Assembly: GCF_024168645.1 (NCBI RefSeq)
Contig: NZ_JALJWF010000001.1
Location: forward strand, 6,079,501-6,143,500
Reading direction: 5' to 3'
Length of the DNA stretch: 64,000 nt
Source of the DNA: Pseudomonas sp. GGS8
GTDB lineage: Bacteria > Pseudomonadota > Gammaproteobacteria > Pseudomonadales > Pseudomonadaceae
In this document: positions 8,586 to 59,409 of the stretch, in pieces
Layout: every line of letters begins with the position of its first letter
Position numbering within the stretch: the stretch's first letter is position 1
The notes under the pieces: generated by a model
Databases searched by the model: none
What the model saw: only the letters and a program-made list of their open reading frames with translations
Told to the model about the DNA's origin: nothing
Position numbers and translations under genes: made by a program

Positions 8586-8645
8586 AGCGCAAGCGTCCAG
8601 CCCGAGTACCATGGAGCGATTCACATAACGCGTCAGGGAATCGAC

Positions 8646-9041: not shown

Positions 9042-9043
9042 GC

Positions 9044-15813: not shown

Positions 15814-16021
15814 CTGACTCCGGTATCTGGGTATACACCCAACCCCAAAACATAAGTCGCGCCAATAAATTTATCTCCAAGAATTCAAATAGTTACATAG
15901 AACCAAGGTATTAGCTTATTACCTCAATACAACAAACTGTCCTCCCACTGTTGCCCAGCCAACAGCGGGAGGAGCAGGTATTACCCTGAAACCGGGATTA
16001 CACAAATCAGCATTCCGACTA

Positions 16022-16390: not shown

Positions 16391-16508
16391 GACACTATTC
16401 CTTTTCCTGTTAATCGTGAGTGAAGACGCGAGAAATGAACTAGCCGATGCCTTCATTTTTTTCAGTAGGTCTTATTGCAAGAGCCACACTAATGCTCGAA
16501 CTAACACG

Positions 16509-16712
16509 CGTCTACTGTCAGAAATAACAGGTAGCCCAACTTTTTCGACGTGCGGTAATCGGCAGTCAAATCACCACATTTCGCACAAACCGCGCCGCCA
16601 CTTCTCCATCATTACGATAGGAATGCGGCTGATGACTGGCAAACATGAAGAACTCGCCAGCCGCAATTTTCTGCGACTGATCGCCCAGCATCAGCATCAG
16701 GCAACCTTCGAA
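16509..16712 (-). pseudogene. duplicated 3' end of the XRE-cupin regulator gene
   Basis: These 204 bp match 21253-21456 closely over their whole length without net gaps: the last ~49 codons of the regulator (ending at the stop codon at 16566) plus 57 bp of downstream sequence including the hairpin 'ctactgtcagaaataacagg'. The copy ends abruptly at a repeated 'gaaaatacggggac' sequence, so only the cupin C-terminus remains. It cannot make a functional protein. Confidence 0.85.
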
Positions 16713-16740
16713 GAAAATACGGGGACGAAAATACGGGGAC
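16711..16740. repeat. tandem 14-bp repeat at a recombination junction
   Basis: 'gaaaatacggggac' occurs twice in direct succession, exactly between the end of the duplicated regulator fragment and the end of the truncated AMP-ligase fragment. Sequences of the kind 'acggggac' are often found at ends of REP-associated or other small mobile elements in Pseudomonas; here that is only a suggestion. Confidence 0.6.
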
Positions 16741-16745
16741 ACCCA

Positions 16746-17089
16746 TTAGCCGCCAGGTCGAGATTGTCCGGCAGTGTCAGCAGTTCGGCGCCGATGTGCC
16801 GGGCAGCCAGCGCGAGAAGTAGCAGATTCGGTTCGAACGCGTCGCTCAGGGCCAGACACGAATCTTCGGTGAAACCTTGCTGACGCAAGCCATCGGCCAG
16901 CCGTTCGACATCGCGCAAGGCATCGATCCAGCGCCAGACGAACCACTGGCCATGGCGTTTGTGGCGCAGCGCCGGTTGCAATGGGCTGACCTGCGCCCAA
17001 TGCTGCAGCTGCTCCAGGGCCCGGGGCACCTTGACCTGCCACTCGGTGGTGTCCGCGATGGGCGGACGCTTGAGTTCATGCACGCTCAT
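16746..17089 (-). pseudogene. truncated AMP-binding (acyl-CoA synthetase) gene, 5' end only
   Basis: About 113 codons match the amino end of an acyl-adenylating enzyme: 'LEQLQHWAQVSPLQPALRHK', then 'WFVWRWIDALRDVERLADGL', with the 'ALAARHIGAELLTLP' segment. Start codon and an AGAGG site are intact, but the sequence stops at 'LDLAANG' and continues into foreign junction sequence; the ATP-binding and C-terminal parts (over 400 residues in the family) are gone. Its neighbours point to a former sulfur-compound or fatty-acid role, but this is inference. Confidence 0.75.
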
Positions 17090-41536: not shown

Positions 41537-42589
41537 TTATTCTGATTTTATTCCATGACTCTCGAATGGGCTCAACGCCACCACTTGATGGCGCTCGAAA
41601 CTGAGCCGCGCAGCGTCTAGCACGCGGGTGGTCGCCAGTGCATCACGGGCCTCGACCGGCAGTGGGCCACCGCTCTGTAACGCGGCTTGTAGCTGCAAAT
41701 AGAACTGGTTCCAGCAGCCTCGCTCGGACGGCACCCGCTCGCGCACCTCGCCCTGTTCGAACCAGCCCCAGCGACGATGCTCTTCGACGCCCCAGCGCTC
41801 GCCCTCGGATTTGGGCGTGAGACCGGCCAGGGTCGACGCCTCTTGCCCGTCCAGACCGTCGACGCTGTAGCAGCCCTGGGTGCCGGTCACGCGAAAGCGC
41901 GGGCCGGGGGTGTTTTGCAGGCAACTGCCGCCCAGGTGCGAGATCACGCCGTTGGCATGGGTCAGGGACATAAAGAAGCCGTTGTCGAAGGGCTGGCCTT
42001 TTTCGAGGTAATCCAGTTCGGCATACACCCGGATGACGGGGCCGAACAACAGCAGCGCCTGATCCACCAGATGGCTGCCCAGATCGCGCAGGAAACCGCC
42101 GCCGCTGCCGTTGTTCACCGACTGCGGCGAGAAGCGTTCGATCCGCGACTCGAAACGGGTGACCTGGCCCAGCGCTCCGGACTCGATGAGTTTGCGCACG
42201 GTGAGGAAGTCCGAGTCCCAGCGCCGGTTCTGGTAGACGCTCAAGTGCACGCCCTGACGCTCGGCCATGGTGATCAGGGTTTGCGCCTGTTGCGTATCGG
42301 CCGCGAACGGCTTGTCACTGACCACCGCCACCCCGTGTTCGATGGCGTCGAGCACCAGCGCCGGGCGACCTTTGAGCGGCGTGGACACCACCAGCACATC
42401 AACCCCGGCTTCAACCAGTTGGCCAATGCTGTCGAAGGCCGGTACGCCGGGATGTTCCGTGGCCAGCAGTTGTCGGCGCTCGGCGGAACGGGTGACCACG
42501 CCGACGAAGGTCGCTGCCGGCAGACTGCTGATCAGCGGAGCATGGAAAAACCGGCCGCCATGGCCGTAACCGACAAGTCCGATACGCAT
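41537..42589 (-). CDS. Gfo/Idh/MocA-family oxidoreductase
   Basis: A 350-residue NAD(P)-dependent dehydrogenase: Rossmann start 'MRIGLVGYGHGGRFFHAPLI', catalytic 'VVSDKPFAADT' (DKP in place of the usual EKP) and 'GGFLRDLGSHLVDQALLLFG'. Likely oxidises a polyol or sugar related to inositol. AAGGAG precedes the ATG by 8 nt. It stands at the end of the left half of the iol locus, where the foreign gene cluster begins. Confidence 0.9.
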   Translation of the reverse strand: MRIGLVGYGHGGRFFHAPLISSLPAATFVGVVTRSAERRQLLATEHPGVPAFDSIGQLVEAGVDVLVVSTPLKGRPALVLDAIEHGVAVVSDKPFAADTQQAQTLITMAERQGVHLSVYQNRRWDSDFLTVRKLIESGALGQVTRFESRIERFSPQSVNNGSGGGFLRDLGSHLVDQALLLFGPVIRVYAELDYLEKGQPFDNGFFMSLTHANGVISHLGGSCLQNTPGPRFRVTGTQGCYSVDGLDGQEASTLAGLTPKSEGERWGVEEHRRWGWFEQGEVRERVPSERGCWNQFYLQLQAALQSGGPLPVEARDALATTRVLDAARLSFERHQVVALSPFESHGIKSE

Positions 42590-42880
42590 AGATAAACTCC
42601 TTATGGTTGGCTTCAACCCAGCCTTGGGGCAGCAGAAAACCCGTAGAGGATTTCAGATAACGCACAGGTATAGCGCTAGAGTGCCCATCCGTGACAGACC
42701 GCAATCAACTTTTATCGTGGCAGAAATGGAATGGCGACACGACTTTGGGTTGGCGCTATCGGCTTCTCCAGTAGCGTTCGCCGGCACACGGCATCAACAC
42801 GCCGAGGTTAAATCGCCATGCCGATGCCGCCGTGACAGCTCAAGAGAATTGCGTCGATAACTTGATCGCGAGGAGAAGAC
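42590..42880. other. junction between iol locus and inserted gene cluster
   Basis: About 290 bp without a convincing gene. It must contain the promoter for the Gfo/Idh gene and the end of the inserted cluster. No obvious terminator, att site or target duplication is visible by eye. Confidence 0.5.
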
Positions 42881-44038
42881 TCAAACGGCAGGCGAAAGGA
42901 ACCGAAGGGCCGACTTTGCCGAAGGTCGCTCGTCATCAATTGAGAGCGGAGCAAGGAAAATACGTTCGAAGTAGGCCGAAGGAATACCCGCGCGACCGAC
43001 ACAGTATTCAATAACATGAGCCCAAGATTTTTCATGCAGTCGTGCGTAATCAATATAGCTCTGTGCCTGACCAAGCTTTGAAGCTATTCGCAAGTCAAAC
43101 GTATGAAAAAGCTCAACGAACGCAACGTCGTCAAGATCTTGGGCTTGCAAGTATTTACGACCGGCAAGTAACAGCACCTCGGTCTCGATGCCAGCCAGAC
43201 GAGAGAGATAAAACATATCATTCATGGCACGCCGCAGTATCGAGGCTCGTTTGGCGGTGGTTTTGTCCACACCAATCGCGCAAAGCGTGGCTGACACCAT
43301 GAGGGAGTCCATGAGCTTTCTCTTCATCGATGGCTGCGTCGAGACGTCAAAATGGTCATGAAGTATTGAAGACTCAAATGGAGAACCCAACCCCCTCAAT
43401 CTGGAGTTCAGCGTCTCCGCGCCAAATCCGAATTCATACCCCAATACACCTGCGTCGTCGCAAATTTCGATAAGGTTGCCGGTATCCCGGTACTCGTCTC
43501 GCTGAATATCATAAACAGCGAACGTTATGCCCTCCCCGCGCACCCCCTCCAGACCGTATCGCCATCGGTAATAGCTGTCAGGGAAACCATCGACTTCAAT
43601 ACTCGCCCCTTTCCAATAATCGCTCACGCACTCATACATGCTCAGAGAGCGACTCATCCGGCACAAAAACTTCGTCTGATGTGTTTCCAGCAGGGAAGTC
43701 AAAAATCTCGTGACAAAATCCAGCATAAGGTTCAAGGACTGCGGACAACCCAGCAAACCCAACTGAGTAAAACAACTCATGTACTGAAGATCGTGATCCC
43801 AGTTTCTCACCACTTTCAAATTCTGGTTTCTGATGCAGCCCTGCGCAATTGAAATGCCAGGAAATGGCAAGCGCCGCGAGACTAAATGTTGCTTGTAACC
43901 GGCAATGGTGGAATTGGCAAACAACAGACTGTCATCCTCACTCAACAACGCCGAGGGTGGCGCGGAGGTGAAGCCGAATTCGGCGGCCATTGTTGTAAAG
44001 TCAGTCACCAATGCATCAAGTTCAATTTTGTTTTTCAC
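42881..44038 (-). CDS. stand-alone alanyl-tRNA synthetase-like catalytic protein
   Basis: A 385-residue protein that follows the class II AlaRS core in order: 'FGFTSAPPSALLSEDDSLLF' (PSSLVP..D.TLLF), 'ISIAQGCIRNQN' (QKCIR), 'FTQLGLLG' (FEMLGN), 'EFGFGAETLNSRLRG' (DTGMGLERL) and 'KRASILRRAMNDMFYLSRLA' (GRGYVLRRILRRA). The editing and C-Ala domains of the ~870-residue enzyme are absent, and several key residues differ, so charging tRNA-Ala is doubtful. It may adenylate an amino acid for a biosynthetic step. Start is GTG with GAGGTG 6 nt upstream. Last gene of the cluster, 24 bp after the ATP-grasp gene. The assignment is by motif reading. Confidence 0.65.
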   Translation of the reverse strand: MKNKIELDALVTDFTTMAAEFGFTSAPPSALLSEDDSLLFANSTIAGYKQHLVSRRLPFPGISIAQGCIRNQNLKVVRNWDHDLQYMSCFTQLGLLGCPQSLNLMLDFVTRFLTSLLETHQTKFLCRMSRSLSMYECVSDYWKGASIEVDGFPDSYYRWRYGLEGVRGEGITFAVYDIQRDEYRDTGNLIEICDDAGVLGYEFGFGAETLNSRLRGLGSPFESSILHDHFDVSTQPSMKRKLMDSLMVSATLCAIGVDKTTAKRASILRRAMNDMFYLSRLAGIETEVLLLAGRKYLQAQDLDDVAFVELFHTFDLRIASKLGQAQSYIDYARLHEKSWAHVIEYCVGRAGIPSAYFERIFLAPLSIDDERPSAKSALRFLSPAV

Positions 44039-44062
44039 ACGATCACCTCAATCGGACGCACT

Positions 44063-45307
44063 TCAAGCTAAACATTTAACCTTCACGGAAAAACGCTTCT
44101 TGATTTCCTGAATGGTAGCGACCACTTCGTCAGCATTGGCCTCGTGGACCACATACATTCCGACTGCGGGATCCTCATAATATTCTTCATTGAAACGTGT
44201 GCCGGCAGTCGCGATTTTCTTCCAAACCACACGGTCGCATAGATCAGGATCGCCATCCACAGACACTATCTCGCAAAAACCCGTTTCCTGAAGTGCCAGT
44301 ACAACCCAGCCACCCGACTGATTGATATCGAGGCCCATGAACCCGCTCGACTTCAGTACCGAGGGCGCCTGAACATCCACATTGAAATTTTCTTTTAATA
44401 GATTGACGCCGTAGATGTTATTGATGCATGGCGCGATAGCTGCTCCACCAGGGCGCGAGGCGATTTCCAGAAACACCAGATCGTTATCCGTCTGCAAAAA
44501 TGCTTCGAGATGGAAGACGATATCGACCGCACCCAGCGAGTGAAGTGTGCGTCGGGTAAAGTTGACTATTTTTTGCTGGAGCATAGGGTCATCAATCAAT
44601 GCTGACGACATTGCTATTTTTTCATGTTGCCAGGCAAAGCAGTCATCTATATAGCGAGAACCGCAGACAAAAATCAGCTCACCTTGTCGACAGATACCAT
44701 CGATATGTATCACTGGCGCATCCACAAACTGTTCCACTAGGTGATCAACGCCAAGCGACCTGAGCAACTCCAATTTTGGCACGAGTTCTTCAGTATTTTT
44801 TACTACATAAACGTGTCTACTACCGGCTTGCGAAGCCGCTTTGACCACGAGAGGATAATCCCCGGCCGCAAACACCTGCGAAACCGCAGATAAACCTTTT
44901 TCCGCCAGTAGCTTTCCACCGATGAACCGGCTGGTTTCAACGCCTTCACCGCGAACAAGCGCCGATTTCATCAGAAACTTATTTCTGAATGCAGACACAT
45001 CTTTAAGCTTTCTACCGGCTATCGCGTAATGATCTCGAACAGCAGCACCGCACAAAATCGTATATTCAGAGTTAGCGATGACGTAATCGATATTGCCAAA
45101 ATCGGAAATAATATCGTTACAAAACAAAAATATATCCAACAACTTTTTGTCATACTCCTCCACGTCAAACAGGGCCGGCAGCGAAAGCACTTTATAGTGC
45201 TCGCACGGGTAAGCAGGTGCCTCTTTCCCTATATAAAACCAGCGTGTTTCGGCGTCAAAAAAATCGGGATCCACGTAGGAATCACCAATAACCAGAACGT
45301 TGCTCAT
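44063..45307 (-). CDS. ATP-grasp ligase
   Basis: A 414-residue ATP-grasp protein: N-terminal pre-ATP domain ('MSNVLVIGDSYVDPDFFDAE'), then 'DVSAFRNKFLMKSALVRGEG', the ATP-binding 'YPLVVKAASQAGSRHVYVVK', 'VEQFVDAPVIHIDGICRQGE', and the metal-binding 'VFLEIASRPGGAAIAPCINN'. The family joins a carboxylate to an amine or thiol through an acyl phosphate; biosynthetic members make dipeptides or amides. The start at 45307 follows a poor ribosome site but matches the fold. Lower GC than iol genes. Confidence 0.85.
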   Translation of the reverse strand: MSNVLVIGDSYVDPDFFDAETRWFYIGKEAPAYPCEHYKVLSLPALFDVEEYDKKLLDIFLFCNDIISDFGNIDYVIANSEYTILCGAAVRDHYAIAGRKLKDVSAFRNKFLMKSALVRGEGVETSRFIGGKLLAEKGLSAVSQVFAAGDYPLVVKAASQAGSRHVYVVKNTEELVPKLELLRSLGVDHLVEQFVDAPVIHIDGICRQGELIFVCGSRYIDDCFAWQHEKIAMSSALIDDPMLQQKIVNFTRRTLHSLGAVDIVFHLEAFLQTDNDLVFLEIASRPGGAAIAPCINNIYGVNLLKENFNVDVQAPSVLKSSGFMGLDINQSGGWVVLALQETGFCEIVSVDGDPDLCDRVVWKKIATAGTRFNEEYYEDPAVGMYVVHEANADEVVATIQEIKKRFSVKVKCLA

Positions 45308-45400
45308 AGGACAATTTTCTCTTGCAATGAATTTTATGGAGCAAAAGTAAGGGTTAGTATTCAAGCTGTCGCACCCGACCACCTCCCCCGTCAAAAATGC

Positions 45401-46186
45401 TTACATCAGAAACTCATCCAACGCTTGAAAGTAATCCCGCGACTGCTCGAGAAAGGGGAAGTGAGCAGCACCTGTAATTTTAACGACTCGGCAGTTAATC
45501 AGCCGGCTCCTGATTTTTTCTGCCTGGTAGTCCGTACAAATATCGTTATCACCGTAAGTCACTAATACGGGGCAACGGAGTTTGCCAAGCAACTCCAGAT
45601 AGGATTCGCGCAATGTAATATCACCCAACGGGGGGCGTTTTATTGCTACAATCTGATCCTCTGCCAGACTGCTTTTATTACAAATGTACGAGTCAAAAAA
45701 CAACTCATCTGCGCCAGCTGAGTTCGCATGCATGGCGAAATTATCAAGGCGCTGCTGATTGACTTTCAGAAATTCTTTTCTCTCTGGACAAAACCCCGAC
45801 AGAACCACTTTGACTCGGCCTTGCGCAAGGTCGTAGCGTTGTAAAACTTCACACAACAGTACAGCACCAAAGGAGTGCGCGATAATGATCAAGTGCTCAT
45901 CGCGCAAATGACACAAATGAAACCACAACTCCTCCACCAACAATAACAACAGTTCTTCTGACCCGGGACAAAACTGTGTATCTTCTTTATATGAGAATTG
46001 GTTATATAAATAGCAACCATACGAATTTTGTACACTCCACGCCTGAAATGGACGCATCAATGAACTGTCGACGGGGCGGCCGTGAATGCATAAGACGTTG
46101 GTTGAACCCTTCGAACCAACCAGCCACTGACGTTTTTTGTAATGCGGAAAGCGTTTAACGACTTCGCGCCTATATTCATCGGACAT
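45401..46186 (-). CDS. alpha/beta hydrolase
   Basis: A 261-residue hydrolase with oxyanion-hole 'LCIHGRPVDSSLMRPF', nucleophile elbow 'IIAHSFGAVLLCEVL' (Ser), acid 'LVTYGDNDICTD' and 'ITGAAHFPFLEQS' (His). No signal peptide. It may release an ester, amide or thioester within the pathway. 93 bp before the ATP-grasp gene. Confidence 0.85.
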   Translation of the reverse strand: MSDEYRREVVKRFPHYKKRQWLVGSKGSTNVLCIHGRPVDSSLMRPFQAWSVQNSYGCYLYNQFSYKEDTQFCPGSEELLLLLVEELWFHLCHLRDEHLIIIAHSFGAVLLCEVLQRYDLAQGRVKVVLSGFCPERKEFLKVNQQRLDNFAMHANSAGADELFFDSYICNKSSLAEDQIVAIKRPPLGDITLRESYLELLGKLRCPVLVTYGDNDICTDYQAEKIRSRLINCRVVKITGAAHFPFLEQSRDYFQALDEFLM

Positions 46187-46238
46187 CGCCCGTCACCTCC
46201 CCATTTTATTGATGCGCCCACGTTAGAAGCAGACGCGG

Positions 46239-46601
46239 TCAAACCTGATTGACTTCCACGTAATTACCATCAGGATCGGTGATATAAAACTGACGAAAAC
46301 CGTTTACTTGTTTTTCATCGAGGATCGATAAGTTCGCTATGGTACTGGCTTCCAGGATGCGTACAGAATCCTCAACAAAAAAACCATAATGCGACATTCG
46401 ACCGGCCTCGGGCTCCTCGAATGGCTGAGCGTTCACAATCAATTCGAGCTTTGGGTATTTGTTATCAGAGAGAAAATACAGATGAAAGGAACCGTCTCCT
46501 GCGGCAAATTCCTCAATGACGTCAAATTTGAATATATCCCGATAAAAGCTGATCATCTGCTCGGGCTTATTTGTTCTGATCGCCAAATGTAAATGACTCA
46601 T
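46239..46601 (-). CDS. VOC-family (glyoxalase/bleomycin resistance) protein
   Basis: A 120-residue vicinal-oxygen-chelate protein starting 'MSHLHLAIRTNKPEQMISFY'. The paired beta-alpha-beta-beta-beta modules and likely metal ligands are visible: His near 5, Glu in 'LELIV', His in 'MSHYGFFV', Glu in 'DPDGNYVEVNQ'. Could be an isomerase, dioxygenase or a resistance binder. ATG overlaps the AKR gene stop by 4 bp. Confidence 0.85.
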   Translation of the reverse strand: MSHLHLAIRTNKPEQMISFYRDIFKFDVIEEFAAGDGSFHLYFLSDNKYPKLELIVNAQPFEEPEAGRMSHYGFFVEDSVRILEASTIANLSILDEKQVNGFRQFYITDPDGNYVEVNQV

Positions 46602-47512
46602 GCTTCACCCCACAGGGACAGTCGTTGCCCTACCTGTGTCTTGAAGAGGTGGGTAATCGCGCTGGCAGCATTCAGCAGTTCGCCGTCGGAAATACGATCA
46701 CGGTTCAATGCATGCAAGTGGTCAGGGTTGTGAAGACCCAAGACCGGGGTCACCCCCTGCGATTGAACCCAACTCACTGCCAGGTTAGACAAGCCGGCTC
46801 CCTCCGGTAGAAGCTTTCTCAGCTCCTTCAACATCTTTTCTATCGCTGGGCGATATTTTTCAGAAAACAGAACGACGTAATTTCGGTGATCTGCTTCGGA
46901 GAAACGCCGATATTCGAGTCGGTCAGTCAAGATGCCCTGAGCCAACGTCGAATAGCCCATCAGCTCCATGTTGCGATCCTTCGCGAACTGGCTGATCCCA
47001 AACTCCACGCTTCTAAAGAACAACGAATACGCGTATTGCAGGCAGTCCAGTTTCACCATGTCGTCAACCCGTTTCAGGTCCGCCAGTTCGTAGTTACAAA
47101 CACCAATTTTTTTGGTGAGACCGGTGGTTCTGGCGTATTCGAGGGCACGAAACGTTTCCTCCAACTCCACAGTGTCTGTCCCCATGGTTCCTGCCGGCCA
47201 ATGGATTAATAGCGTATCCAACTGATCGACGCCCAGCCGGGCCAGGCTTCCTTCAATACTCTCGACAACCTTGGAGCGGGTCATCATGTCGGGCGGCACT
47301 TTACTGACGACCTCAAATTTTCGGGTACTGAAGTGTCTCAGGACCTCACCGACGATCTTTTCAGAGTTGCCATCGCCGTAGGACGGAGCGGTGTCTATTC
47401 GTGAAACCCCTTGGTCAATCGCAGCAAAAAGGGTTTCATAGGCTTTCCAGCTATTAACCGTGGACCAACTATCGCCGCCAACTTGCCAAGTTCCCAAAAT
47501 GATATTTTTCAT
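46598..47512 (-). CDS. aldo/keto reductase
   Basis: A 304-residue AKR with the catalytic tetrad Asp/Tyr ('RIDTAPSYGDGNSEKIVGEV'), Lys ('FEVVSKVPPDM') and His ('TLLIHWPAG'), and the NADPH site near 'AVSWVQSQGVTPVLGLHNPD'. It should reduce a carbonyl in the pathway. One base overlap with the upstream gene, four with the VOC gene. Confidence 0.9.
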   Translation of the reverse strand: MKNIILGTWQVGGDSWSTVNSWKAYETLFAAIDQGVSRIDTAPSYGDGNSEKIVGEVLRHFSTRKFEVVSKVPPDMMTRSKVVESIEGSLARLGVDQLDTLLIHWPAGTMGTDTVELEETFRALEYARTTGLTKKIGVCNYELADLKRVDDMVKLDCLQYAYSLFFRSVEFGISQFAKDRNMELMGYSTLAQGILTDRLEYRRFSEADHRNYVVLFSEKYRPAIEKMLKELRKLLPEGAGLSNLAVSWVQSQGVTPVLGLHNPDHLHALNRDRISDGELLNAASAITHLFKTQVGQRLSLWGEA

Positions 47513-48279
47513 CAGAACTCCGTCTTGTAGGTGCTGATGGTAAAAACCAGACGCCGTTCCGTATCAATAAAGCGCCCGCCCTTATGAATCAGACCAATGC
47601 CCTTGGCAAAATCCTTGAACTTGGCACCTTCACCCAGAACGATATCGACCACAGCCTGATTTCGCGCATCAATGCCTTTGTACATTTCTCCTTTTAGTAG
47701 AATCCAGTTTGATTGGGGTACCACTTGACAGTCAGCATCATCAATCGCTGCGTCTGCATCGTTCAGCGCTATGGAATTCTCATCAAAGTAAGTGCGATTT
47801 GTGTTTTGCTCTCGTAGATAAATAGCGCCTTCACCGTAGAAGCACTTGGTCAGCGTAAGTGCCGCTGCATCGCGGTGGTAAAACTTACTGACGGAGGGAT
47901 GCTCCTTCTCAACATACTCTGAAGTTACAACCCTCAACGACACCAGTGGTTTTTCATCGTAGGTGATAGCGCCAAATAAATCGATTGCCAGGTACAGCTC
48001 GTTCAGAAGCGGGTCGAGCAATGCCGGATTCAAATGCTCGCTCAGCGAACGCTTCAAACCGTCCTTTATAAAAGCGACGTCTTTTCTAAGAAAAATCGCC
48101 TTATAACTATCCGGCAGAGACAAGGCGATGTCACGAGCCCGGTCGTTTGAAATTTTTTCTGCCACGAGGTCTATCAGAACTGCGGGATCATTATTCTGAC
48201 TGAAACCCGACAAATCGGACACTGGAAGCAGATCAAGGTTGAATACCTGGACTATATTGTTCAATGCTAACGTTTTCAT
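47512..48279 (-). CDS. DUF1826-like protein, possible Fe/2-oxoglutarate-type oxygenase fold
   Basis: A 255-residue protein. The second half has 'KFYHRDAAALTLTKCFYGEG', 'NWILLKGEMYKGIDARNQAV' and 'GIGLIHKGGRFIDTERRLVF'. The spacing of H-x-D, an 'LLKGE' strand, a later His and an Arg pair resembles DUF1826 proteins, which have a double-stranded beta-helix pattern. If correct, H-x-D...H would bind iron and the Arg a co-substrate. This is a by-eye assignment. Start 2 bp after the dCTP-deaminase-like gene stop. Confidence 0.5.
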   Translation of the reverse strand: MKTLALNNIVQVFNLDLLPVSDLSGFSQNNDPAVLIDLVAEKISNDRARDIALSLPDSYKAIFLRKDVAFIKDGLKRSLSEHLNPALLDPLLNELYLAIDLFGAITYDEKPLVSLRVVTSEYVEKEHPSVSKFYHRDAAALTLTKCFYGEGAIYLREQNTNRTYFDENSIALNDADAAIDDADCQVVPQSNWILLKGEMYKGIDARNQAVVDIVLGEGAKFKDFAKGIGLIHKGGRFIDTERRLVFTISTYKTEF

Positions 48280-48281
48280 AA

Positions 48282-48800
48282 TCAGGCATAGTCCAGGTAG
48301 GTTTTAGAGGGTTGCGGGCCAGTCGTATTCTGGTATTTACCTTTATAAAGGGTGATTTCTCCTTCGGGCCTCCAAAAGGAAACCTGGGCCAATAGCATTT
48401 TCGGATAAATCTTTACAGGTAGCGTCGCATACAACTGAAAGGTGGTTTTTCCAATGGAGCCAATATCAATCAGGTCCGCGGTGACGTGCACAAAAAGCCC
48501 AGCGCGAGCGGTACCGGATTTGGCATGAATGATCGGAACAAAATGATCACTGCCTATCACCTCCAGCGACTCCGATAATAAAAAGTCTCCCACCTCCAGT
48601 TGCAACCCTTCCTCGGGTATATCGTAGACATCATACAAGTGTTGTTTTTTGAGATCGATGACGCCTTCTCTGTACTTCAGATACTTGTAACCCAATCGCA
48701 AATCATAGGAATTAGTGCTAAGTTGCGACTCATCAAATGGCTCGACAATAATGTTTCCGGCACCAATTTCTTCGCGTATCTTACTTCCTGTAAGAATCAT
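48282..48800 (-). CDS. dCTP deaminase-fold protein A
   Basis: A 172-residue protein of the dCTP deaminase/dUTPase superfamily: 'NSYDLRLGYKYLKYREG', 'HAKSGTARAGLFVHVTADLI' and 'KIYPKMLLAQVSFWRPEGEI'. It keeps the VHVTA and Asp loops but has Gln ('TTFQLY') where the E. coli enzyme has the catalytic Glu138 ('VLEFY'), and Lys for the first Arg. Classic deamination is therefore unlikely alone. ATGA overlap with the next, related gene suggests a mixed trimer. Confidence 0.82.
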   Translation of the reverse strand: MILTGSKIREEIGAGNIIVEPFDESQLSTNSYDLRLGYKYLKYREGVIDLKKQHLYDVYDIPEEGLQLEVGDFLLSESLEVIGSDHFVPIIHAKSGTARAGLFVHVTADLIDIGSIGKTTFQLYATLPVKIYPKMLLAQVSFWRPEGEITLYKGKYQNTTGPQPSKTYLDYA

Positions 48801-49297
48801 GCAAGCAACCTCTCCGTCGGGCTATTGTAAAGGGCGTAGTTTTTGCCCAGACACTTTACTGCACCAGAGTTTGTCCAGAACGATACTTGGCCTATGGGCA
48901 TTTTTGGATAAACCCGAATGGACTTTGTAGCGTGCAATTCTAATGTCCATTGATGACTGGACGTGGTATGCCCCAAGTTGGCGGAAATCTGTAAAAACAA
49001 GCCATACCGCCCCATGGAGCTTCTACCAATGAGAGACATGGCGTATAGAGAACTGCCAATCACCTCATCGGTGACACCCAAGTACATGGCCCCCGGATGA
49101 AGAACGTACCCATCATCTGTCATCTGGACGGTCTCAAATTCCGGCTGCCCATTCGTCATGCAGCCGGTATAAAACTTGATCTCTTCACCTAATAGATAAT
49201 TATAACTATTGGGATTTACGCGATCACTGTCGAAATTAGAGATGGTTATATCACCATTACTCACAGCCTCTATGATTTTTTGCCTAGTAAGAATCAT
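48797..49297 (-). CDS. dCTP deaminase-fold protein B
   Basis: A 166-residue relative of protein A (the two share 'MILT', 'NSY', 'YPKM' and 'QVSFW'). It keeps 'GRSSMGRYGLFL' and the catalytic Glu position ('WTLELHA') but has lost the VHVTA/Asp loop ('QISANLGHTTSSHQW'). The two proteins thus retain different halves of the ancestral active site. ATG at 49297 has GGAAGAG upstream; an ATG at 49309 lacks a site. First of the tightly coupled genes. Confidence 0.82.
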   Translation of the reverse strand: MILTRQKIIEAVSNGDITISNFDSDRVNPNSYNYLLGEEIKFYTGCMTNGQPEFETVQMTDDGYVLHPGAMYLGVTDEVIGSSLYAMSLIGRSSMGRYGLFLQISANLGHTTSSHQWTLELHATKSIRVYPKMPIGQVSFWTNSGAVKCLGKNYALYNSPTERLLA

Positions 49298-49463
49298 GCA
49301 CTCTTCCATTTTTTATTATTAATTACATCCATTTACCCACAACAAACAATTAACACTTGCTACTTATCGGCGCGCACAGAAACAGACGTCAAGGCTATAG
49401 ACTTATCCGTCTGCTTCTGTTCTTTTCAAATCAATCGAGGGTAAAACACGCACGCCTCACTAT
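49298..49463. promoter_or_regulatory. AT-rich gap before the deaminase-like genes
   Basis: About 165 bp with AT-rich sequence ('tttttattattaattacatc' at 49310-49329). A separate promoter for the 48282-49297 and following genes may lie here. No hairpin with T-tract seen. Confidence 0.35.
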
Positions 49464-50276
49464 TTAAAACAGTTCAACATAGCGATTAGGGTAGCGTTGA
49501 GCGTCATAACGTAACACCAACACGTTGTATCCCTGATATTGCCGCAGGTCATTGGACATCTTCTTGATACTGTACAAACGGTCGTACATTGCCGACTTGA
49601 CATTTTCATCGTCAATCTGATGTAAAACACTAGCGCGTTCTACCGTTGACTCGCAGTAGTGATGAAGCTCTTTCTCAGTTTCTGCCAAGGGTTCCAGTCG
49701 CTCCTCAAAATAGACATCAAAGCCTTTATATAACTGCATGACGTCTTTATAGGCCTTAACTGTTGGTGTTATACCGAATACAGTCGCGGCTTGTGTCAGC
49801 ATCTTTTGCGGTATCTCACCGACAGTGTAGAAAGGTGATGCCAGCAAATATCCGGAAGAACCCAACAGACGACAGATGTTATCTACCATCAGCTGCGGCT
49901 GAGGAAAAAACCCCAGACCTGCCCCCACAACGACATGAGAAAATTCATTCTCCGAGGTGAAAAGAGTACCGTCCACAGCCTTGAAGTCGACTTTATCCCC
50001 TAACCCCATTTCGTTTGCGTTGATGCGCGCTTGGCCAACCGAATCCTTACAAAGATCGATACCGACGCCATTGCATCCAACGTCTTTGACCAAGGCATTA
50101 ATGGAAAACCCTGTGGTGCAGGCTACTTCCAGAACTTTCGAATCAGCATTCAGATTAGAGTTATTCTTCCATTTGGTTAACGTACTGTAAGATCCAGGCG
50201 GAACATTAGTCTGATTTACAAAAGCAACAAATGCCGTGTAGCCCATTTCGTTAATGCAGCGAGTATCGGTAATCAT
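49464..50276 (-). CDS. SAM-dependent methyltransferase
   Basis: A 270-residue class I methyltransferase: SAM-binding motif I 'VLEVACTTGFSINALVKDVG', acidic loop 'GVGIDLCKDS', 'FKAVDGTLF', and motif IV region 'FSHVVVGAGLGFFPQPQLMV'. Small-molecule type (UbiE/arsenite-like), substrate unknown. AAGGAAG precedes the ATG by 5 nt. Between the deaminase-like pair and the exporter gene. Confidence 0.85.
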   Translation of the reverse strand: MITDTRCINEMGYTAFVAFVNQTNVPPGSYSTLTKWKNNSNLNADSKVLEVACTTGFSINALVKDVGCNGVGIDLCKDSVGQARINANEMGLGDKVDFKAVDGTLFTSENEFSHVVVGAGLGFFPQPQLMVDNICRLLGSSGYLLASPFYTVGEIPQKMLTQAATVFGITPTVKAYKDVMQLYKGFDVYFEERLEPLAETEKELHHYCESTVERASVLHQIDDENVKSAMYDRLYSIKKMSNDLRQYQGYNVLVLRYDAQRYPNRYVELF

Positions 50277-50410
50277 ATAGCTTCCTTTCCATACAGGGCG
50301 TATTCACGCCGATTGACATTATTGTTATACGAACACGGTGGAAGTGCAGCGGGCGCACCAACATCGGCTGGACTATTAATACGCTAGGGCTTTGGTGGCT
50401 CAGTGGTGGA

Positions 50411-51535
50411 TCAGGTTTTCCACATCCAATGTTTGAAATACTGTCGATGGACATTCACGAGAGCCAGCGCGCAACCAAGCATCGCGATCGCTTGCCATTC
50501 ATTGACAACACTCTCTGAAAAAACTTTTGCTACGCGAATAACTATGATGAGACAGACCTGCAGGGCGGCGAGCACGCCCACAACCAGCAACCGGCTGAGT
50601 GTAGTGTTGGCTTTCGCCAGGTTCGCCGCGATTGACGACATCACGACAGTCGACATCACACCTAATAGAACGACAATAACCGGCATGGAAGGAGACGCTT
50701 CGGTTCCGACGTTGGAGAGCCTGAAACCGAGCAGGCTAATCCCCATCAGCCCCGCCATCAAAAGCTTGTTCTCATCTATTTTCAAACTTGACAGGATACC
50801 CACACTGGCGAGGACACCCATGATGTAGAAGCTGGTCATACCGGACACACTTCCCCACCAATGCGCTGTGTTCAATTCGGCCCAGCGATGGATAGAAACG
50901 TTAAAGCAGTTCACGGAAAACACTGCCAGCATGTAGCACAACACGTAAAATGCGGGCAGTGCTTTTGCCGCAGCGAGTATTTGGCGAAGCGAAGCACGTT
51001 GATAGGGGGCGATACTGACAGACCGGCTGATATAAAAGAGCGGTAAAACAATTGCCGCACAGTACGCTAGTGTCAACCATAAACAAGAGACACTTTCCGA
51101 CAACCATCCTAATGCCGAATACAGCAAAAGTGATTCGACATTTATGATCAGTATCAGAATTGAGGCCGCCCATTTTCCATTATTTACCCGCGATATTTCT
51201 CGCATGGCGAAATAAAAACTGGATGACGCAATCAACCCAGAGCACAACGCTTCCGGCACGATTAATACTGAGCCTGCCAACAGTACATAAGCGCTCAATA
51301 ACATCTGTATCGTCATCGCGACTTGCACCACGCGCTCGCAAGGTACTCCCGCCAACGGGATCAGTAAGACTCCAAGACAGCCAGACAAAAAAATGGCTAG
51401 TACTTCTTGAGCGCTAAATCCGATAGCGGTGATGCTTAGATACAACAGTGTCAGTCCGCCATGAATCGAAATCATACCGCACAGGCACAATGCGAGGCCA
51501 AGCCCGGGTGGGTAAAGACGCTTTTGGATATTCAT
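50411..51535 (-). CDS. MFS-like transporter, probable exporter
   Basis: A 374-residue protein with eleven or twelve hydrophobic spans starting 'MNIQKRLYPPGLGLALCLCG' and an MFS-type arrangement ('LAIFLSGCLGVLLIPLAGVP', 'CAAIVLPLFYISRS'). The family cannot be fixed closely. In this setting it is probably the export pump for the product. Ribosome site weak; AT-rich lead. Confidence 0.7.
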   Translation of the reverse strand: MNIQKRLYPPGLGLALCLCGMISIHGGLTLLYLSITAIGFSAQEVLAIFLSGCLGVLLIPLAGVPCERVVQVAMTIQMLLSAYVLLAGSVLIVPEALCSGLIASSSFYFAMREISRVNNGKWAASILILIINVESLLLYSALGWLSESVSCLWLTLAYCAAIVLPLFYISRSVSIAPYQRASLRQILAAAKALPAFYVLCYMLAVFSVNCFNVSIHRWAELNTAHWWGSVSGMTSFYIMGVLASVGILSSLKIDENKLLMAGLMGISLLGFRLSNVGTEASPSMPVIVVLLGVMSTVVMSSIAANLAKANTTLSRLLVVGVLAALQVCLIIVIRVAKVFSESVVNEWQAIAMLGCALALVNVHRQYFKHWMWKT

Positions 51536-51628
51536 GTATTCACTTTTTTATTTTTGTATTGCACCGACTGGCACCTATAACAAATCTGGTGCCAAACGGT
51601 TCATCGCAACCCTACAGACTTCAACGAC

Positions 51629-54073
51629 TCAAATCGCAGGACCACACAAGAAGTTTACAATTTTATTTGGGGAGTAGATAACTTTGGTGATGGCGCGACC
51701 TTTTAAAGCATCAATCACCTTGTCTTGCGCTCGCTCGACGTCAATTTGCGCCTCTCCTGTGCAGTCTGTCAGGTCATTTACATGCTTACCGTTGATGTAT
51801 ATTTTTGTGGCTTTCACCATCTTCACACGCGCTGTGGGCCACGCAGCGTGGTCAATACCCGACTCCCCAAGACGCTCCCACATTTCCGAGCACACATGCG
51901 GTGCGAAGGGAAACAGGGCTTTTATGAAATCCTTGGCTATTCGCTGGCAAAAATACACTTTATCTTTTTCAGCTTCGTTGATGAATTCCATGAACGCAGC
52001 CACCGCTGTATTGAAGTTCAACGAAGCAAAAGATGCGTCAATCTTCGAGAGCGTGTTCCCCCAAAGGGTTTCCAGTCTTTCATTAGAAACGCTCGCTCGG
52101 TTTACTTGCGGTATCGCCGCAAAGGCGTCATAATCCAGGAGACCTGATACTCTGTTAAGAAATCTTGCACAGCCTTTGATACCCTTTATATCCCACTTTT
52201 TGTTTTGGCCAAGCGGCCCCATGAACATCATGTAAATCCTGAACGTATCGACACCATATTCTTCAATAAGCGTATCTGGAACGACAACATTCAAGAGTGA
52301 TTTCGACATCTTGGTGTTGAACACCTGCAATTCTTCATTGGTATTCTTTAACCAATACTTCCCATCTCGGTGTTCTGCTTCGTCGACGGCGACTATTCTG
52401 CCAGAGGCATCCTTGAAGGCATCAGCAGTCACCAACCCCTGGTTGTAGAGCTTTTTAAACGGTTCGTCGAAGCCCACCAAGCCGACATCAAACAGGACCT
52501 TATGCCAGAATCTTGCATACAGCAGGTGCATCGTCGCATGCGCAGCGCCACCCACGTAAAGATCAACCTGGCTCCAGTACTCGCTACTTTGTTTTGAAAA
52601 AGGTTCCGCCTGATTATGCGGATCCAAGAATCGCAGGTAGTACCAGCAGGATCCTGCCCACCCTGGCATGGTATCGGTGATGCGAAAGAGTCGGTTACCG
52701 GACTTATCTTCGCAATTCACCCATTCCTGAGCGCGTTGCAACGGACTGGCTCCGTCTCGGCCCGGAGAGTAGTTTTCAACGTGAGGTAGCTCTATAGGCA
52801 GTTCGTGATAACCGGCAGTCACTACCTCGCCGTCGGTCCCTCGATACAAAGGGAAGGGTTCACCCCAATACCTCTGCCGAGAGAACAGCCAATCCCTCAT
52901 CTTGTAGCGCACTTTTTTGACAGCCGCGCGGCTCTGAATCAACTCATCAATGACGTGCGCGCGAGCTTGCACTCTCGAAAAACCGTTGATCGAACCAGAG
53001 TTCTTCAGGTTCTGGTCCGGATCAAAAATGGAGACATGTCCGATATCCAAGTGCTGGCAAATTTCCAGGGCTTGGTGATCTGTGGCGGGAACAGACAACA
53101 ATGAGCCTTCATTTCCGTCAATGGTCAGGTAATTCACTACATAGATAGGAATTTCCTTTCCCGTTAAAGGATGCAGGGCAGACCGTTCAACAGAGACACC
53201 CTGCATCCCGTTTTCGGGCGCTTGCATTGACGAGATTCTGGCTTGAACATCGCTTTCTGTGCCAAAAAGCAAATCTTTGACATAGGGATGTTCAGCAGAA
53301 AGAAAAATGGCGTTAACCCCGTACAGGGTTTCCGGCTCGTCGGTAAACACAGTCAGTTGAATGCTGGCGTTATCAAGCACCTTGAAATCTATATCAACAC
53401 CTTCCGTGCGACCGATCCATTCACGCTGCATCTTTTTGACTGATTCCGGCCAGTCCAGCTTGTCCAGGCCGTCGAGCAACTTGTCAGCGTATTGAGTGAT
53501 CTTTACAACCCATTGCTTTAACGGTTTTTTTGTACAGATATAATCGCCGCGTTCAGAGCGACCATCGATGACTTCTTCATTTGCCAGTACGGTCTTGAGT
53601 TCTTCACACCACCAGACATTTTCTTCTTTTTCGTAAACAAGTCCTTGTTCATATAATTTCAGGAACAGAAACTGAGTCCACTTGAAATACTTTTTGTCAG
53701 ATGTGTCTATTTCTCGACTCCAATCGTAACTCAACCCCATCAGCATGAGTTGACGTTTGAAATTCTCACAGTTGATCTTTGTTATCTCTGCCGGATGCAC
53801 ACCGGTTTTTATTGCATACTGTTCCGCTGGCAGTCCAAAAGCGTCCCACCCCATAGGATGCAACACATTAAAACCGTCCATTCTTTTTTTTCTGGCGATG
53901 ATATCGGTGCCTATGTAACCGACCGCATGGCCCACATGCAAGCCGTTACCTGAGGGATACGGAAACATATCGAGCACATAATACGATGGCTTAGCACTGA
54001 AGTTATCCGCCGCATACAGGTTACTGTCAGCCCATTTACTTTGCCACTTGATTCTGAATTGATCGTTATCCAT
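51629..54073 (-). CDS. divergent leucyl-tRNA synthetase paralog
   Basis: An 814-residue class I LeuRS of bacterial type. 'DMFPYPSGNGLHVGHAVGY' holds the HIGH-type motif (HVGH), 'NTKMSKSLLNVVVPDTLIEE' the KMSKS motif, and the CP1 editing domain lies between. In CP1 the T-rich site is altered ('FTDEPETLYG' instead of TTRPDT) and the 'PGHDQRD' region reads 'PATDHQALEI', so the universal editing Asp is lost. It is not the housekeeping gene by context. Most likely it is a resistant copy protecting the host or an enzyme activating a Leu-like amino acid. ATG at 54073 matches family starts; in-frame ATGs at 54094 and 54154 cannot be excluded. Confidence 0.85.
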   Translation of the reverse strand: MDNDQFRIKWQSKWADSNLYAADNFSAKPSYYVLDMFPYPSGNGLHVGHAVGYIGTDIIARKKRMDGFNVLHPMGWDAFGLPAEQYAIKTGVHPAEITKINCENFKRQLMLMGLSYDWSREIDTSDKKYFKWTQFLFLKLYEQGLVYEKEENVWWCEELKTVLANEEVIDGRSERGDYICTKKPLKQWVVKITQYADKLLDGLDKLDWPESVKKMQREWIGRTEGVDIDFKVLDNASIQLTVFTDEPETLYGVNAIFLSAEHPYVKDLLFGTESDVQARISSMQAPENGMQGVSVERSALHPLTGKEIPIYVVNYLTIDGNEGSLLSVPATDHQALEICQHLDIGHVSIFDPDQNLKNSGSINGFSRVQARAHVIDELIQSRAAVKKVRYKMRDWLFSRQRYWGEPFPLYRGTDGEVVTAGYHELPIELPHVENYSPGRDGASPLQRAQEWVNCEDKSGNRLFRITDTMPGWAGSCWYYLRFLDPHNQAEPFSKQSSEYWSQVDLYVGGAAHATMHLLYARFWHKVLFDVGLVGFDEPFKKLYNQGLVTADAFKDASGRIVAVDEAEHRDGKYWLKNTNEELQVFNTKMSKSLLNVVVPDTLIEEYGVDTFRIYMMFMGPLGQNKKWDIKGIKGCARFLNRVSGLLDYDAFAAIPQVNRASVSNERLETLWGNTLSKIDASFASLNFNTAVAAFMEFINEAEKDKVYFCQRIAKDFIKALFPFAPHVCSEMWERLGESGIDHAAWPTARVKMVKATKIYINGKHVNDLTDCTGEAQIDVERAQDKVIDALKGRAITKVIYSPNKIVNFLCGPAI

Positions 54074-54117
54074 GATCGTTATTACACACTCCATATCTCT
54101 TATTTGCCCGCTCCACC

Positions 54118-54155
54118 TTAAAAATAACAGGAAAGGTATTCCTGAATTATTCATG
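54118..54155 (-). promoter_or_regulatory. candidate attenuator hairpin before the LeuRS paralog
   Basis: On the minus strand, AATAATTCAGGAA - TACCT - TTCCTGTTATT folds into an 11-bp stem with a small bulge, followed by T's (TTATTTTT). It looks like an intrinsic terminator 45 nt upstream of the LeuRS start. The sequence also reads Leu codons (CTG TTA ... TTA) in frame. Confidence 0.4.
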
Positions 54156-54491
54156 GGGACAGACGTTTCTTGTATGCAACACATCCTCACTCGCAAAAAA
54201 CACATTGTCAAACGTATTTTTTTAAATTACGCAAACCACCTTTTACAGCGCATCCGCTCTCAAACCGAAACAAGCGGATACAGCCCGCCTTTACGATAAG
54301 AACAAATCGTACAGCCTCTTAATTTCGCTCAATTTGATTTGTTACGGATTATTACTAGGTAATAGGCCCGATTATTTTCATCGCTCTCAAGCCGTATTGT
54401 TTTGCTCCACCCACAAATGTATTACGTCAACTATCGATATTTCGCACACTATAAAAATAAATGTACTACACAGTAAATGTAAATATTCCTA
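54156..54491 (-). promoter_or_regulatory. AT-rich leader and promoter region of the cluster
   Basis: About 335 bp with no gene, very AT-rich compared with flanks, upstream of the first cluster gene. It contains an inverted repeat ATCCGCT-(14)-AGCGGAT at 54252-54279 and a TTGACA at 54203-54208 on the minus strand. The cluster promoter is expected here; exact elements are not resolved. Confidence 0.45.
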
Positions 54492-55435
54492 GGCTCTGTA
54501 CGAAATCCCGAGAAATCCAACAGCCGCCCCTCGGAAGCTGAGATTTTGTAGAGTTCCCAGCCATCCACGGAAAGGAATTCTGTGATGGCAAAGCGTTATG
54601 AACTCTCGGATGAGGCGTGGGATGTGGTCGCCGATCTCTTCACCGAAACCCATGGTAGGGGACGGCCACGCCTCAGCGACCGCCTGATGCTCGATGGCGT
54701 GCTGGGGGTTCTCTGCTCTGGAGCAGCTTGGCGAGATATGCCAGAGCGCTTCGGGCCCTGGTCAACGGTGTACCAGCGGTTTCGAGATTGGCGAAACCGG
54801 GGAACATTCGATCAGATGCTCAAGCGCTTGCACCTGAAGCTGAACGAACAAGGCCTGATCAACTTGCGAACCGGGATGATCGACTCCACAGCCGTACGCG
54901 CAACCCGAGCCTCATCAGGTGCCAGGAAAAAAGGGCCTGATGAGCCTGCCGATCACGCTCTAGGTTGCAGCCGTGGTGGCCTGACCACCAGATCCATATG
55001 CTCAGCGACGCCAACGGCACGCCGTTGCGTTTTGTTCTTTCTGACGGCCAAGCCAGTGACATCAGCTACGCCCAGCCATTGTTGGATGATGTCAGCATCC
55101 CGACGAATCAACGTGGCCGCCCTCGTAAGCGCTGCAAATGGTTGCTCGCCGACAAGGGCTACGACGCCGAAGCACTACGCCGCTACTGCGACCGATATCG
55201 TATGCAGCCAGTCATTCCGCTGCGCTCGATGAAGCGCAAGCCCAAGCCGGGCTTACCGAGGTTGTTTGATAGGCCCAAGTACCGACAGCGAAACATCATC
55301 GAGCGCATGTTTGGCTGGCTGAAAGAGAACCGCCGCATTGTGACGCGCTTCGATAAGCTCACGAAAAGCTACGCAGCCATGGTCTCGCTGGCTTGTTCCA
55401 TGCGGTGTCTACGACATCTCTTTTCATACAGAGCC
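54492..55435 (+). mobile_element. IS5-family insertion sequence (frameshifted)
   Basis: A 944-bp element with terminal inverted repeats GGCTCTGTACGAAA (left) and, read inward on the right, GGCTCTGTATGAAAA. Both ends are flanked by TA, fitting the short TNA-type target duplication of the IS427 group. It holds a single transposase gene broken by a frameshift. It lies exactly between the foreign gene cluster and the right half of the iol locus. Confidence 0.82.
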
Positions 55436-55438
55436 TAG
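54585..55438 (+). pseudogene. IS5-family transposase, one-base frameshift
   Basis: Two overlapping frames form one transposase. The first half reads 'MAKRYELSDEAWDVVADLFT', with 'GAAWRDMPERFGPWSTVYQR' and the first DDE Asp in 'GMIDSTAVRA'. Around 54985 the frame shifts: the first frame gives 'GGLTTRSICSATPT', the second 'IHMLSDANGTPLRFVLSDGQ', as if one A of an AAG codon was lost. The second half has 'LLADKGYDAEALRRYCDRY' (second Asp) and 'RQRNIIERMFGWLKENRRIV' (Glu). Programmed frameshifting is possible in related elements, but here the single-base loss looks like decay. Confidence 0.8.
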
Positions 55439-55489
55439 TTAGGTAAATACGTCGGAGTGTTCGATGTTATTCACAGTGTGATGCGACTC

Positions 55490-56350
55490 TCAGCGGCAGA
55501 GTTCGCTTTTGACCCGTTCGAGCATCATCCGGTTGGACTCGTCCGGCCGATCCTCCCAGGCGAACACCGAGACGGTCGCGATGCCATCGAACTTGATCTC
55601 GCGCAAGGTGCCAAAAAACGCTTCCCAGTCGACCTCGCCCTGGCCGATGTCCAGGTGCTGGTGCACGGTGGCGGTGACGCCCGGCGGGTTGACGATGTAG
55701 CGCAAGCCTGAGGACGCCTTGTGGTTGTAGGTGTCGGCGATGATCAAGTGGCTCAGTTTCGAGCCGGCGTACTTGAGCATCGAGGCGATGTCACCCACGC
55801 CATCGTCATAGAAAAATGTGTGCGGCGCGGCGTAGAGGTAGTTGATCCAGTCGCGGTCCAGGCCGCGAATGATGTCCACCGACTCATTGTTGCGTTCGCA
55901 GAAATCATAAGGGTGGGCCTGGATATCGAGCTTGATGCCTTCGCGTTCGAACTCGGGAATCAGCTCGTCCATGGAGCGCATGAACTGGTTCTCGCAGACC
56001 AATGGGTTGTCCGACTGGCCGGTGAACTCGGTGTTGACCAGCTCGCAGTCCATCTCCACGGCAATCTGGATCGCCCGCTTCCAGTTGCGCACCGCGGCTA
56101 CGCGCAAACCTTCATCGGCGGCGGCCCAGTGGTACATGGGTAATAAGGAAGAGAGTTTGACCCCGGTGTCGCTCAGGGCTTTGCGAAATTCCTTGATCCG
56201 CGCCTTGTCGACCCGCGGGGCTTTGTAGAACGGCAGGAAATCTTCCCGGGGCGACAGCTCGATGTGTTCGTAACCGAGCTCGGCGACCTTGTCGACCATT
56301 TTGCCCAGGGACAGGTTGCGGTACATGTAGGGGTCTAGTGCGATGCGCAT
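55490..56350 (-). CDS. sugar phosphate isomerase/epimerase, IolH-like
   Basis: A 286-residue TIM-barrel protein starting '[20 protein letters not shown]', with '[13 protein letters not shown]', '[11 protein letters not shown]', '[10 protein letters not shown]' and a C-terminal '[20 protein letters not shown]', the IolE/IolH family pattern with metal-binding Glu, His and Asp. It belongs to the inositol genes; exact step unclear (IolH is of uncertain role). It is the gene next to the IS and the inserted cluster. Confidence 0.82.
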
Positions 56351-56378
56351 GTTTTTTTGTTCTCCATCACCTTACGCT

Positions 56379-56409
56379 GATCGTTCCCACGCGGAGCGTG
56401 GGAACGATC
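56379..56409. repeat. 31-bp palindrome
   Basis: A perfect hairpin: GATCGTTCCCACGC - GGA - GCGTGGGAACGATC, in the gap between the IolH-like gene and iolG. Such intergenic palindromes recur in Pseudomonas and may also act as a processing or termination hairpin. Confidence 0.85.
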
Positions 56410-56420
56410 ATTACAGGGGG

Positions 56421-59409
<2,989 letters not shown>

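Follow-up and report, generated by a model that had tools for sequence, protein, structure and literature searches.

A horizontally acquired eleven-gene cluster of Pseudomonas sp. GGS8, with a second leucyl-tRNA synthetase and a complementary dCTP-deaminase-fold pair, as a candidate pathway to a LeuRS-directed aminoacyl nucleotide

What might a bacterium make with a second leucyl-tRNA synthetase (LeuRS2), a protein resembling the core of alanyl-tRNA synthetase (AlaRS) and two adjacent proteins of the dCTP-deaminase fold (DCDa and DCDb), all encoded in a single run of genes? The question is raised by an eleven-gene cluster in a 64,000-nucleotide stretch of the Pseudomonas sp. GGS8 genome (hereafter the window), a genome of one contig (6,719,448 bases) that carries its own AlaRS and another Dcd besides the cluster copies. 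We lean, with modest confidence, to the reading that this horizontally acquired cluster makes an aminoacylated, nucleotide-derived small molecule aimed at LeuRS, and we are more confident that it is biosynthetic at all.

The eleven open reading frames (ORFs) all lie on the minus strand, in the order of Table 1, from position 54073 down to 42881. The initial annotation had described them as richer in A/T than either flank and proposed a comparison of base composition, which bears the description out: per gene, GC content is 0.424-0.519 and GC content at third codon positions (GC3) 0.463-0.600, against 0.592-0.636 and 0.764-0.836 in six flanking genes. The possible oxygenase named there is a DUF1826-related protein with a predicted Fe(II)/2-oxoglutarate (2OG) oxygenase fold; HxD...H and Arg, the functional residues of Fe(II)/2OG dioxygenases, are invariant in an alignment of 15 of its 23 matches. 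Families not listed by the fold searches are not thereby excluded. The membrane protein matched no Pfam or NCBIfam transporter family.

Table 1. Features of the cluster and of the surrounding insertion (window positions; cluster genes in their order along the minus strand)
Feature	Position	Strand	Description
LeuRS2	51629..54073	-	paralogue of leucyl-tRNA synthetase (814 aa) with intact HVGH and KMSKS; residues of the editing site lost
putative exporter	50411..51535	-	membrane protein judged by eye
S-adenosylmethionine (SAM)-dependent methyltransferase	49464..50276	-	related to the methyltransferase adjoining leuS on pAgK84
DCDa	48797..49309	-	dCTP-deaminase fold; catalytic Glu present; without C-terminal KYQ tail
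DCDb	48282..48800	-	dCTP-deaminase fold; Gln for catalytic Glu; C-terminal KYQ..GPQ tail present
DUF1826-related protein	47512..48279	-	Fe(II)/2OG oxygenase fold; HxD...H...R invariant
aldo-keto reductase	46598..47512	-	PF00248, E 7.6e-49
VOC / glyoxalase-fold protein	46239..46601	-	PF00903
alpha/beta hydrolase	45401..46186	-	closest NCBIfam model is proline-iminopeptidase-family, reached below its cut-off; may correspond to AcmE
ATP-grasp protein	44063..45394	-	TTG start as listed; internal ATG better matches start of P. batumici homologue
AlaRS-like core	42881..44038	-	catalytic and tRNA-recognition domains, without editing domain; Asp to Glu at amino-acid site
region unmatched at the DNA level in the four relatives compared, likely insertion	42605..56426	.	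blastn of L011-L014 against the window
IS5-family insertion sequence	54489..55438	+	two overlapping transposase frames; terminal inverted repeats of 17 bp (94 percent)
xylose-isomerase-like TIM-barrel ORF	55490..56350	-	native-like composition, GC3 0.836

The gene set, its recurrence as a unit, the predicted folds and the residue patterns are established by computation. The initial annotation proposed to check whether the set recurs as a unit, and it does: Pseudomonas batumici (L006) carries the full set of eleven genes in identical order, with proteins 52-86 percent identical to those of the window (56 percent for the putative exporter), at another genomic place whose flanks do not match those of the window. 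Because this eleven-gene order is identical, an assembly of unrelated genes in chance order is ruled out. A contig of a Bdellovibrionaceae metagenome-assembled genome (MAG; L007) carries eight of the cluster's gene types, namely, at the contig end, a fragment of DCDb, followed by the AlaRS-like protein, ATP-grasp protein, an MFS_1 protein, oxygenase, aldo-keto reductase, VOC protein and hydrolase. BLAST pairs seven of the eight with window proteins, the exception being the MFS_1 protein, which is not matched to the putative exporter; the absence of LeuRS, methyltransferase and DCDa is uninformative because they possibly lie beyond the contig end.

The cluster is also rare. Among 5.8 billion proteins the oxygenase had 23 matches including itself and the AlaRS-like protein 13, counts that may miss distant relatives because a protein becomes a candidate only if it has short exact words in common with the query. 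Pseudomonas batumici is named among the matches, Photorhabdus viridis among those of both proteins, and a Bdellovibrionaceae MAG among those of the oxygenase. A search of genus genomes, which the initial annotation had also suggested, found the oxygenase in two of 398 (the strain's own and G079, with which the contig coordinates of P. batumici agree), one genome besides that of the window having the whole eleven-gene set; a second genus draw took nearly the same genomes and adds nothing. Class-wide, only the strain's own genome had it (1/369), and it occurs at two loci in GTDB contigs, where the own genome was possibly left out.

In keeping with the initial annotation, which knew of no such pathway, none with this gene set was recognised in keyword listings of the open-access literature, subscription literature and MIBiG lying outside their scope. 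Two known systems resemble parts of the cluster. The ascamycin acm cluster (AcmC/AcmD/AcmE/AcmF; Streptomyces sp. 80H647 / JCM9888) likewise has an extra aminoacyl-tRNA synthetase (aaRS), a membrane transporter, an alpha/beta hydrolase and a truncated AlaRS-like protein whose amino-acid site has Glu in place of Asp (PMC12945691, PMC4257720). Its extra aaRS is an AlaRS, whereas here it is a LeuRS, and the present cluster has in addition the DCD pair, the Fe/2OG oxygenase, the aldo-keto reductase and the VOC and ATP-grasp proteins. The agrocin-84 plasmid pAgK84 has in common with the cluster a second LeuRS (AgnB2, 32 percent identical to LeuRS2) and a related methyltransferase, apart from which no cluster protein matched its ORFs at E 0.01; a class II aaRS-core protein and an Fe/2OG-type gene are present in both without being homologous by BLAST. 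Taken together, these likenesses suggest a new combination of known logics, those of agrocin 84 and ascamycin.

The protein that the initial annotation called AlaRS-core-like does have an AlaRS-like core, but is less likely to be an ordinary synthetase than an AcmF-type transferase that depends on aminoacyl-tRNA. It is reduced to catalytic and tRNA-recognition domains, as in AcmF-type proteins. Two alignments were used (10 of the 13 matches plus the window protein; seven of the 13 plus the window protein and L007): Glu202 is invariant in 11 of 11 rows, and in nine of nine it faces the Asp of the genome's own AlaRS, corresponding to the change D232E in AcmF.

In the pathway that we propose, a DCDa/DCDb heteromer would act on a pyrimidine nucleotide, and the oxygenase, aldo-keto reductase, VOC protein and methyltransferase would tailor the acyl part, the nucleotide part or both. 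The ATP-grasp protein would form one amide-type bond, using ATP. The AlaRS-like protein would form another; for this it would not adenylate a free amino acid but, like AcmF, draw the aminoacyl group from aminoacyl-tRNA. Export of the product would fall to the membrane protein, and the hydrolase may strip off an aminoacyl cap, as AcmE does. LeuRS2, presumably catalytically competent, would sustain the producer during inhibition of the housekeeping LeuRS, and may also provide Leu-tRNA. The cluster would point to candidate natural products directed at LeuRS, a class so far unexplored, whose built-in resistance gene can be tested.

LeuRS2 is a full bacterial LeuRS (TIGR00396, 861 bits, above cut-off), with HVGH at residue 46 and KMSKS at 588, and is 38 percent identical to the genome's other LeuRS (several analyses took its start at 54082, three residues longer). 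In a midpoint-rooted tree of 30 LeuRS (25 of the 120 listed matches, out of 7999 scored, and five others), it falls in a 14-member clade (support 100/100) nested among Bdellovibrionota-type LeuRS and two others, P0058 and P0067 (100/99), the exact sister not being settled by the tree; AgnB2 and the genome's housekeeping LeuRS are distant from it, and the placement of their long branches is unsure. The editing motifs of LeuRS2 are altered, TTRPDT reading TDEPET, and Ala replaces the editing aspartate, which corresponds to E. coli D345; AgnB2 keeps the editing motifs. This aspartate is absent from all nine LeuRS of the inner subclade but present in five of five outer clade members and in all 16 other rows; its loss is therefore derived and not a requirement of the clade. 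A Phe at the place of E. coli Leu41, found in AgnB2 as well, is uninformative on resistance because it is common to all other 29 rows, including the own housekeeping LeuRS. Self-resistance through a synthetase copy, which the initial annotation noted for LeuRS copies, has precedents in the extra LeuRS AgnB2 (PMC5059758) and, for AlaRS, in AcmD, which supplies Ala-tRNA and is more resistant (PMC12945691).

LeuRS2 might instead be mainly biosynthetic, charging tRNA-Leu with leucine or a cluster-made analogue, unedited, for the AlaRS-like protein to transfer the acyl group to an acceptor, and although we consider this rather unlikely it is the best of the alternatives. The loss of the editing aspartate throughout the inner subclade would fit, as would the double part played by AcmD and the example of SbzA, the isoleucyl-tRNA synthetase (IleRS) copy of SB-203208, which moves Ile from Ile-tRNA and is likewise a cluster-borne class I aaRS copy (PMC12945691). 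However, the five outer members keep the aspartate, SbzA is an IleRS with altered motifs (HYGH/AMSKA) whereas LeuRS2, with only a putative transfer role, keeps KMSKS, and a pool of mischarged tRNA-Leu would damage translation.

Two further LeuRS loci may be mentioned. A LeuRS (P0052), which retains the editing aspartate, and an AlaRS-like protein (P0033) are each listed with 6247 bases as the longest contig, which may be one and the same and bear a distant version of the cluster. A leuS on the Agrobacterium tumefaciens plasmid pAtG3_79b (L038, 14007-16526) has no biosynthetic neighbours evident in its annotation.

The nucleotide part of the proposal rests on the DCD pair. The initial annotation gave both proteins the dCTP-deaminase fold. 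By sequence family both reach PF22769, and with TIGR02274 (cut-off 92.8) DCDb scores 103 bits, above, and DCDa 55.8, below. They are not two ordinary deaminases but a conserved complementary pair, judging from their residues. A catalytic Glu is expected in each dCTP deaminase chain, and DCDb has Gln at that position. We opened 11 (H26-H31, H33-H35, H37, H39) of the 32 plasmid records matched by DCDb; the top matches, 48-52 percent identical to it, are in Streptomyces, Rhizobium, Nocardiopsis and Nonomuraea records with two matching places each. Nine of the 11 hold adjacent DCD ORFs (L022-L029, L032), with three DCD ORFs in L030 and a single one in L031 (L029, L030 and L032 are without annotation or Pfam scan). 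The first ORF is nearer DCDa and the second nearer DCDb in eight of the nine pairs; that of NBC_00161 (L028) is divergent, and its a/b labels are uncertain.

Across the pairs, the catalytic position is Glu in 11/11 DCDa and Gln in 11/12 DCDb (Met in L028), and the C-terminal KY(Q/R) tail is present in 12/12 DCDb against 1/11 DCDa; one of the twelve DCDb rows (L007) is cut by the contig end, with its partner unseen. Such a systematic Glu/Gln split between adjacent paralogues sets the pair apart from dCTP deaminase. The rule held in fresh loci: in L106-L108, three further pairs from genomes of the same genus, and in L030, a single Gln is accompanied by one Glu or two (in total, 4 Gln and 5 Glu). 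The comparison that includes these loci took in 60 in all, of which L097 gave no row. Among its 55 rows from loci with a single DCD ORF of at least 100 aa in the fetched stretch, L095 misses the catalytic position; where the position is covered, it is Glu in 52/54, His in one, Ala in one and Gln in none, which ties Gln to the paired form. The 55 rows are not independent, because they hold only 46 distinct sequences. At E 1e-25, the DCD pair was found in 5/396 genus genomes and, in a phylum-wide draw, in 1/398, the own genome. No study of a dCTP deaminase within a biosynthetic gene cluster was recognised in the open-access literature, at the level of the opening lines of abstracts.

The active sites of dCTP deaminases are formed between subunits, and the simplest reading is therefore that DCDa and DCDb would form a mixed trimer with composite active sites. 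A heteromer of this kind would represent a module not yet described for nucleotide-derived natural products, occurring in Pseudomonas, Rhizobium and actinomycetes, and the complementary active-site losses could mark other cryptic clusters. One can go further and envisage the editing-dead LeuRS2 loading tRNA-Leu with a non-cognate leucine analogue made by the cluster, which the AlaRS-like transferase would pass to a nucleotide prepared by a split-site DCD heteromer, with the catalytic Glu from one chain and the nucleotide-binding tail from its partner; so specific a scheme would be correct with low probability only.

The product may, on the other hand, be a small amide or peptide-like compound without a nucleotide, with the DCD pair and the AlaRS-like protein serving as scaffolds or acting on new substrates. 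An amino-acid-derived compound might need no more than the ATP-grasp protein, aldo-keto reductase, VOC protein, oxygenase and methyltransferase, and DCDb is without the catalytic Glu. Yet all twelve DCDb rows keep the KYQ tail of nucleotide-binding dCTP deaminases, and pairs elsewhere lie near genes annotated as or matching cytidine deaminase, NUDIX, MazG, uridylyltransferase, nucleotide pyrophosphatase, P-loop, methyltransferase and glycosyltransferase proteins, the first five types speaking for nucleotides; we regard a nucleotide-free product as quite unlikely.

For the proposed aminoacyl nucleotide, a plasmid of Streptomyces sp. NBC_00239 (L040) offers a parallel. Alongside its DCD pair it encodes an oxygenase of the TauD type, a class II synthetase-like protein that includes editing and anticodon domains (8257-9927), a D/K/N-type aaRS-core protein (15902-16906) and an S66-type peptidase-like protein related to that of the agrocin plasmid. 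A synthetase copy, an aaRS-core protein and a DCD pair thus occur together at least twice with different synthetase types, a combination that fits aminoacyl-nucleotide products. Other DCD pairs (L106-L108) lie in clusters with other genes; that of L106 includes PPDK/PEP-utiliser-like, nucleotide-pyrophosphatase-like, small P-loop and ATP-grasp proteins, and a PEP-synthase-like gene of pAgK84 has a weakly similar counterpart in both L106 and L108. Viral contigs (L051-L105) also encode DCD-fold proteins; where they match DCDb their identity to it is 23-54 percent, and almost all keep the catalytic Glu.

Several points weigh against a LeuRS-directed aminoacyl nucleotide. None of the three catalytic-core changes of AgnB2, Q573 (in KQSKS), T42 and A102 (PMC5059758), is present in LeuRS2, which has KMSKS, a Pro before HIGH and, read by eye, Asn at the third place, so that resistance by the AgnB2 route is unsupported. 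In the AlaRS-like protein, the motif-2 Arg is kept in nine of nine rows, and the protein may therefore use ATP. The column of AcmF N219 (Gln in AcmF, Asn in AlaRS), beside a gap, holds D in four of nine rows, K in two, and S, Y and N in one each, so that Asn is lost in eight of nine and Gln appears in none, and the likeness to AcmF was set by published residues and domains rather than by the AcmF sequence itself. No sulfamate or phosphoramidate gene was recognised in the cluster, which differs from acm in lacking recognisable sulfamate genes and leaves the nucleotide part unspecified. Among the seven annotated DCD-pair records, six (L022, L023, L024, L026, L027, L028) are without an annotated aaRS over the stretch opened; the DCD module is accordingly not aaRS-specific. 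Every reaction, the product and the target are inferred.

Least probable, and very unlikely in our view, is a stress, backup-translation or defence island, with which the rarity and mobility of the cluster and the intact LeuRS signature motifs would agree, but against which stand the joint conservation of tailoring and ligase-type enzymes and a PADLOC scan of eight of the 11 proteins, with no match for seven and one weak match of the methyltransferase to part of a larger model. Anti-phage defence was rejected on the same scan. Plasmid carriage was rejected as well (no plasmid match for the oxygenase at E 1e-5 or the AlaRS-like protein at E 0.01), as was phage carriage (no viral contig matched the oxygenase).

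The cluster is mobile and was imported by horizontal transfer, and it is absent from this place in the relatives compared. In blastn comparisons, homology ends at 42602-42604 in three of four relatives (L013 is without the left-hand gene) and resumes at 56421-56427 in all four, so about 13.8 kb is missing from them, comprising the cluster, the IS5-family element and the xylose-isomerase-like ORF. The flanking GFO/IDH/MocA oxidoreductase genes, presumably of inositol catabolism, adjoin each other in six of seven relative loci (chosen by a long match to the right-hand flank), the seventh being without the left-hand gene. The xylose-isomerase-like ORF had no match in these loci of about 4 kb.

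No Rfam family reached its gathering score in 42000-56500, and no tRNA gene lies within the window. Promoter-like sites were at chance level (14 against 16.0 in shuffles), terminator-like sites numbered 18 against 12.4, and one pair of direct repeats of at least 16 bases lies in 42500-55600. At the right edge of the insertion, a short element (56377-56411), which we take to be REP-like, has many similar short matches in the own and related genomes.

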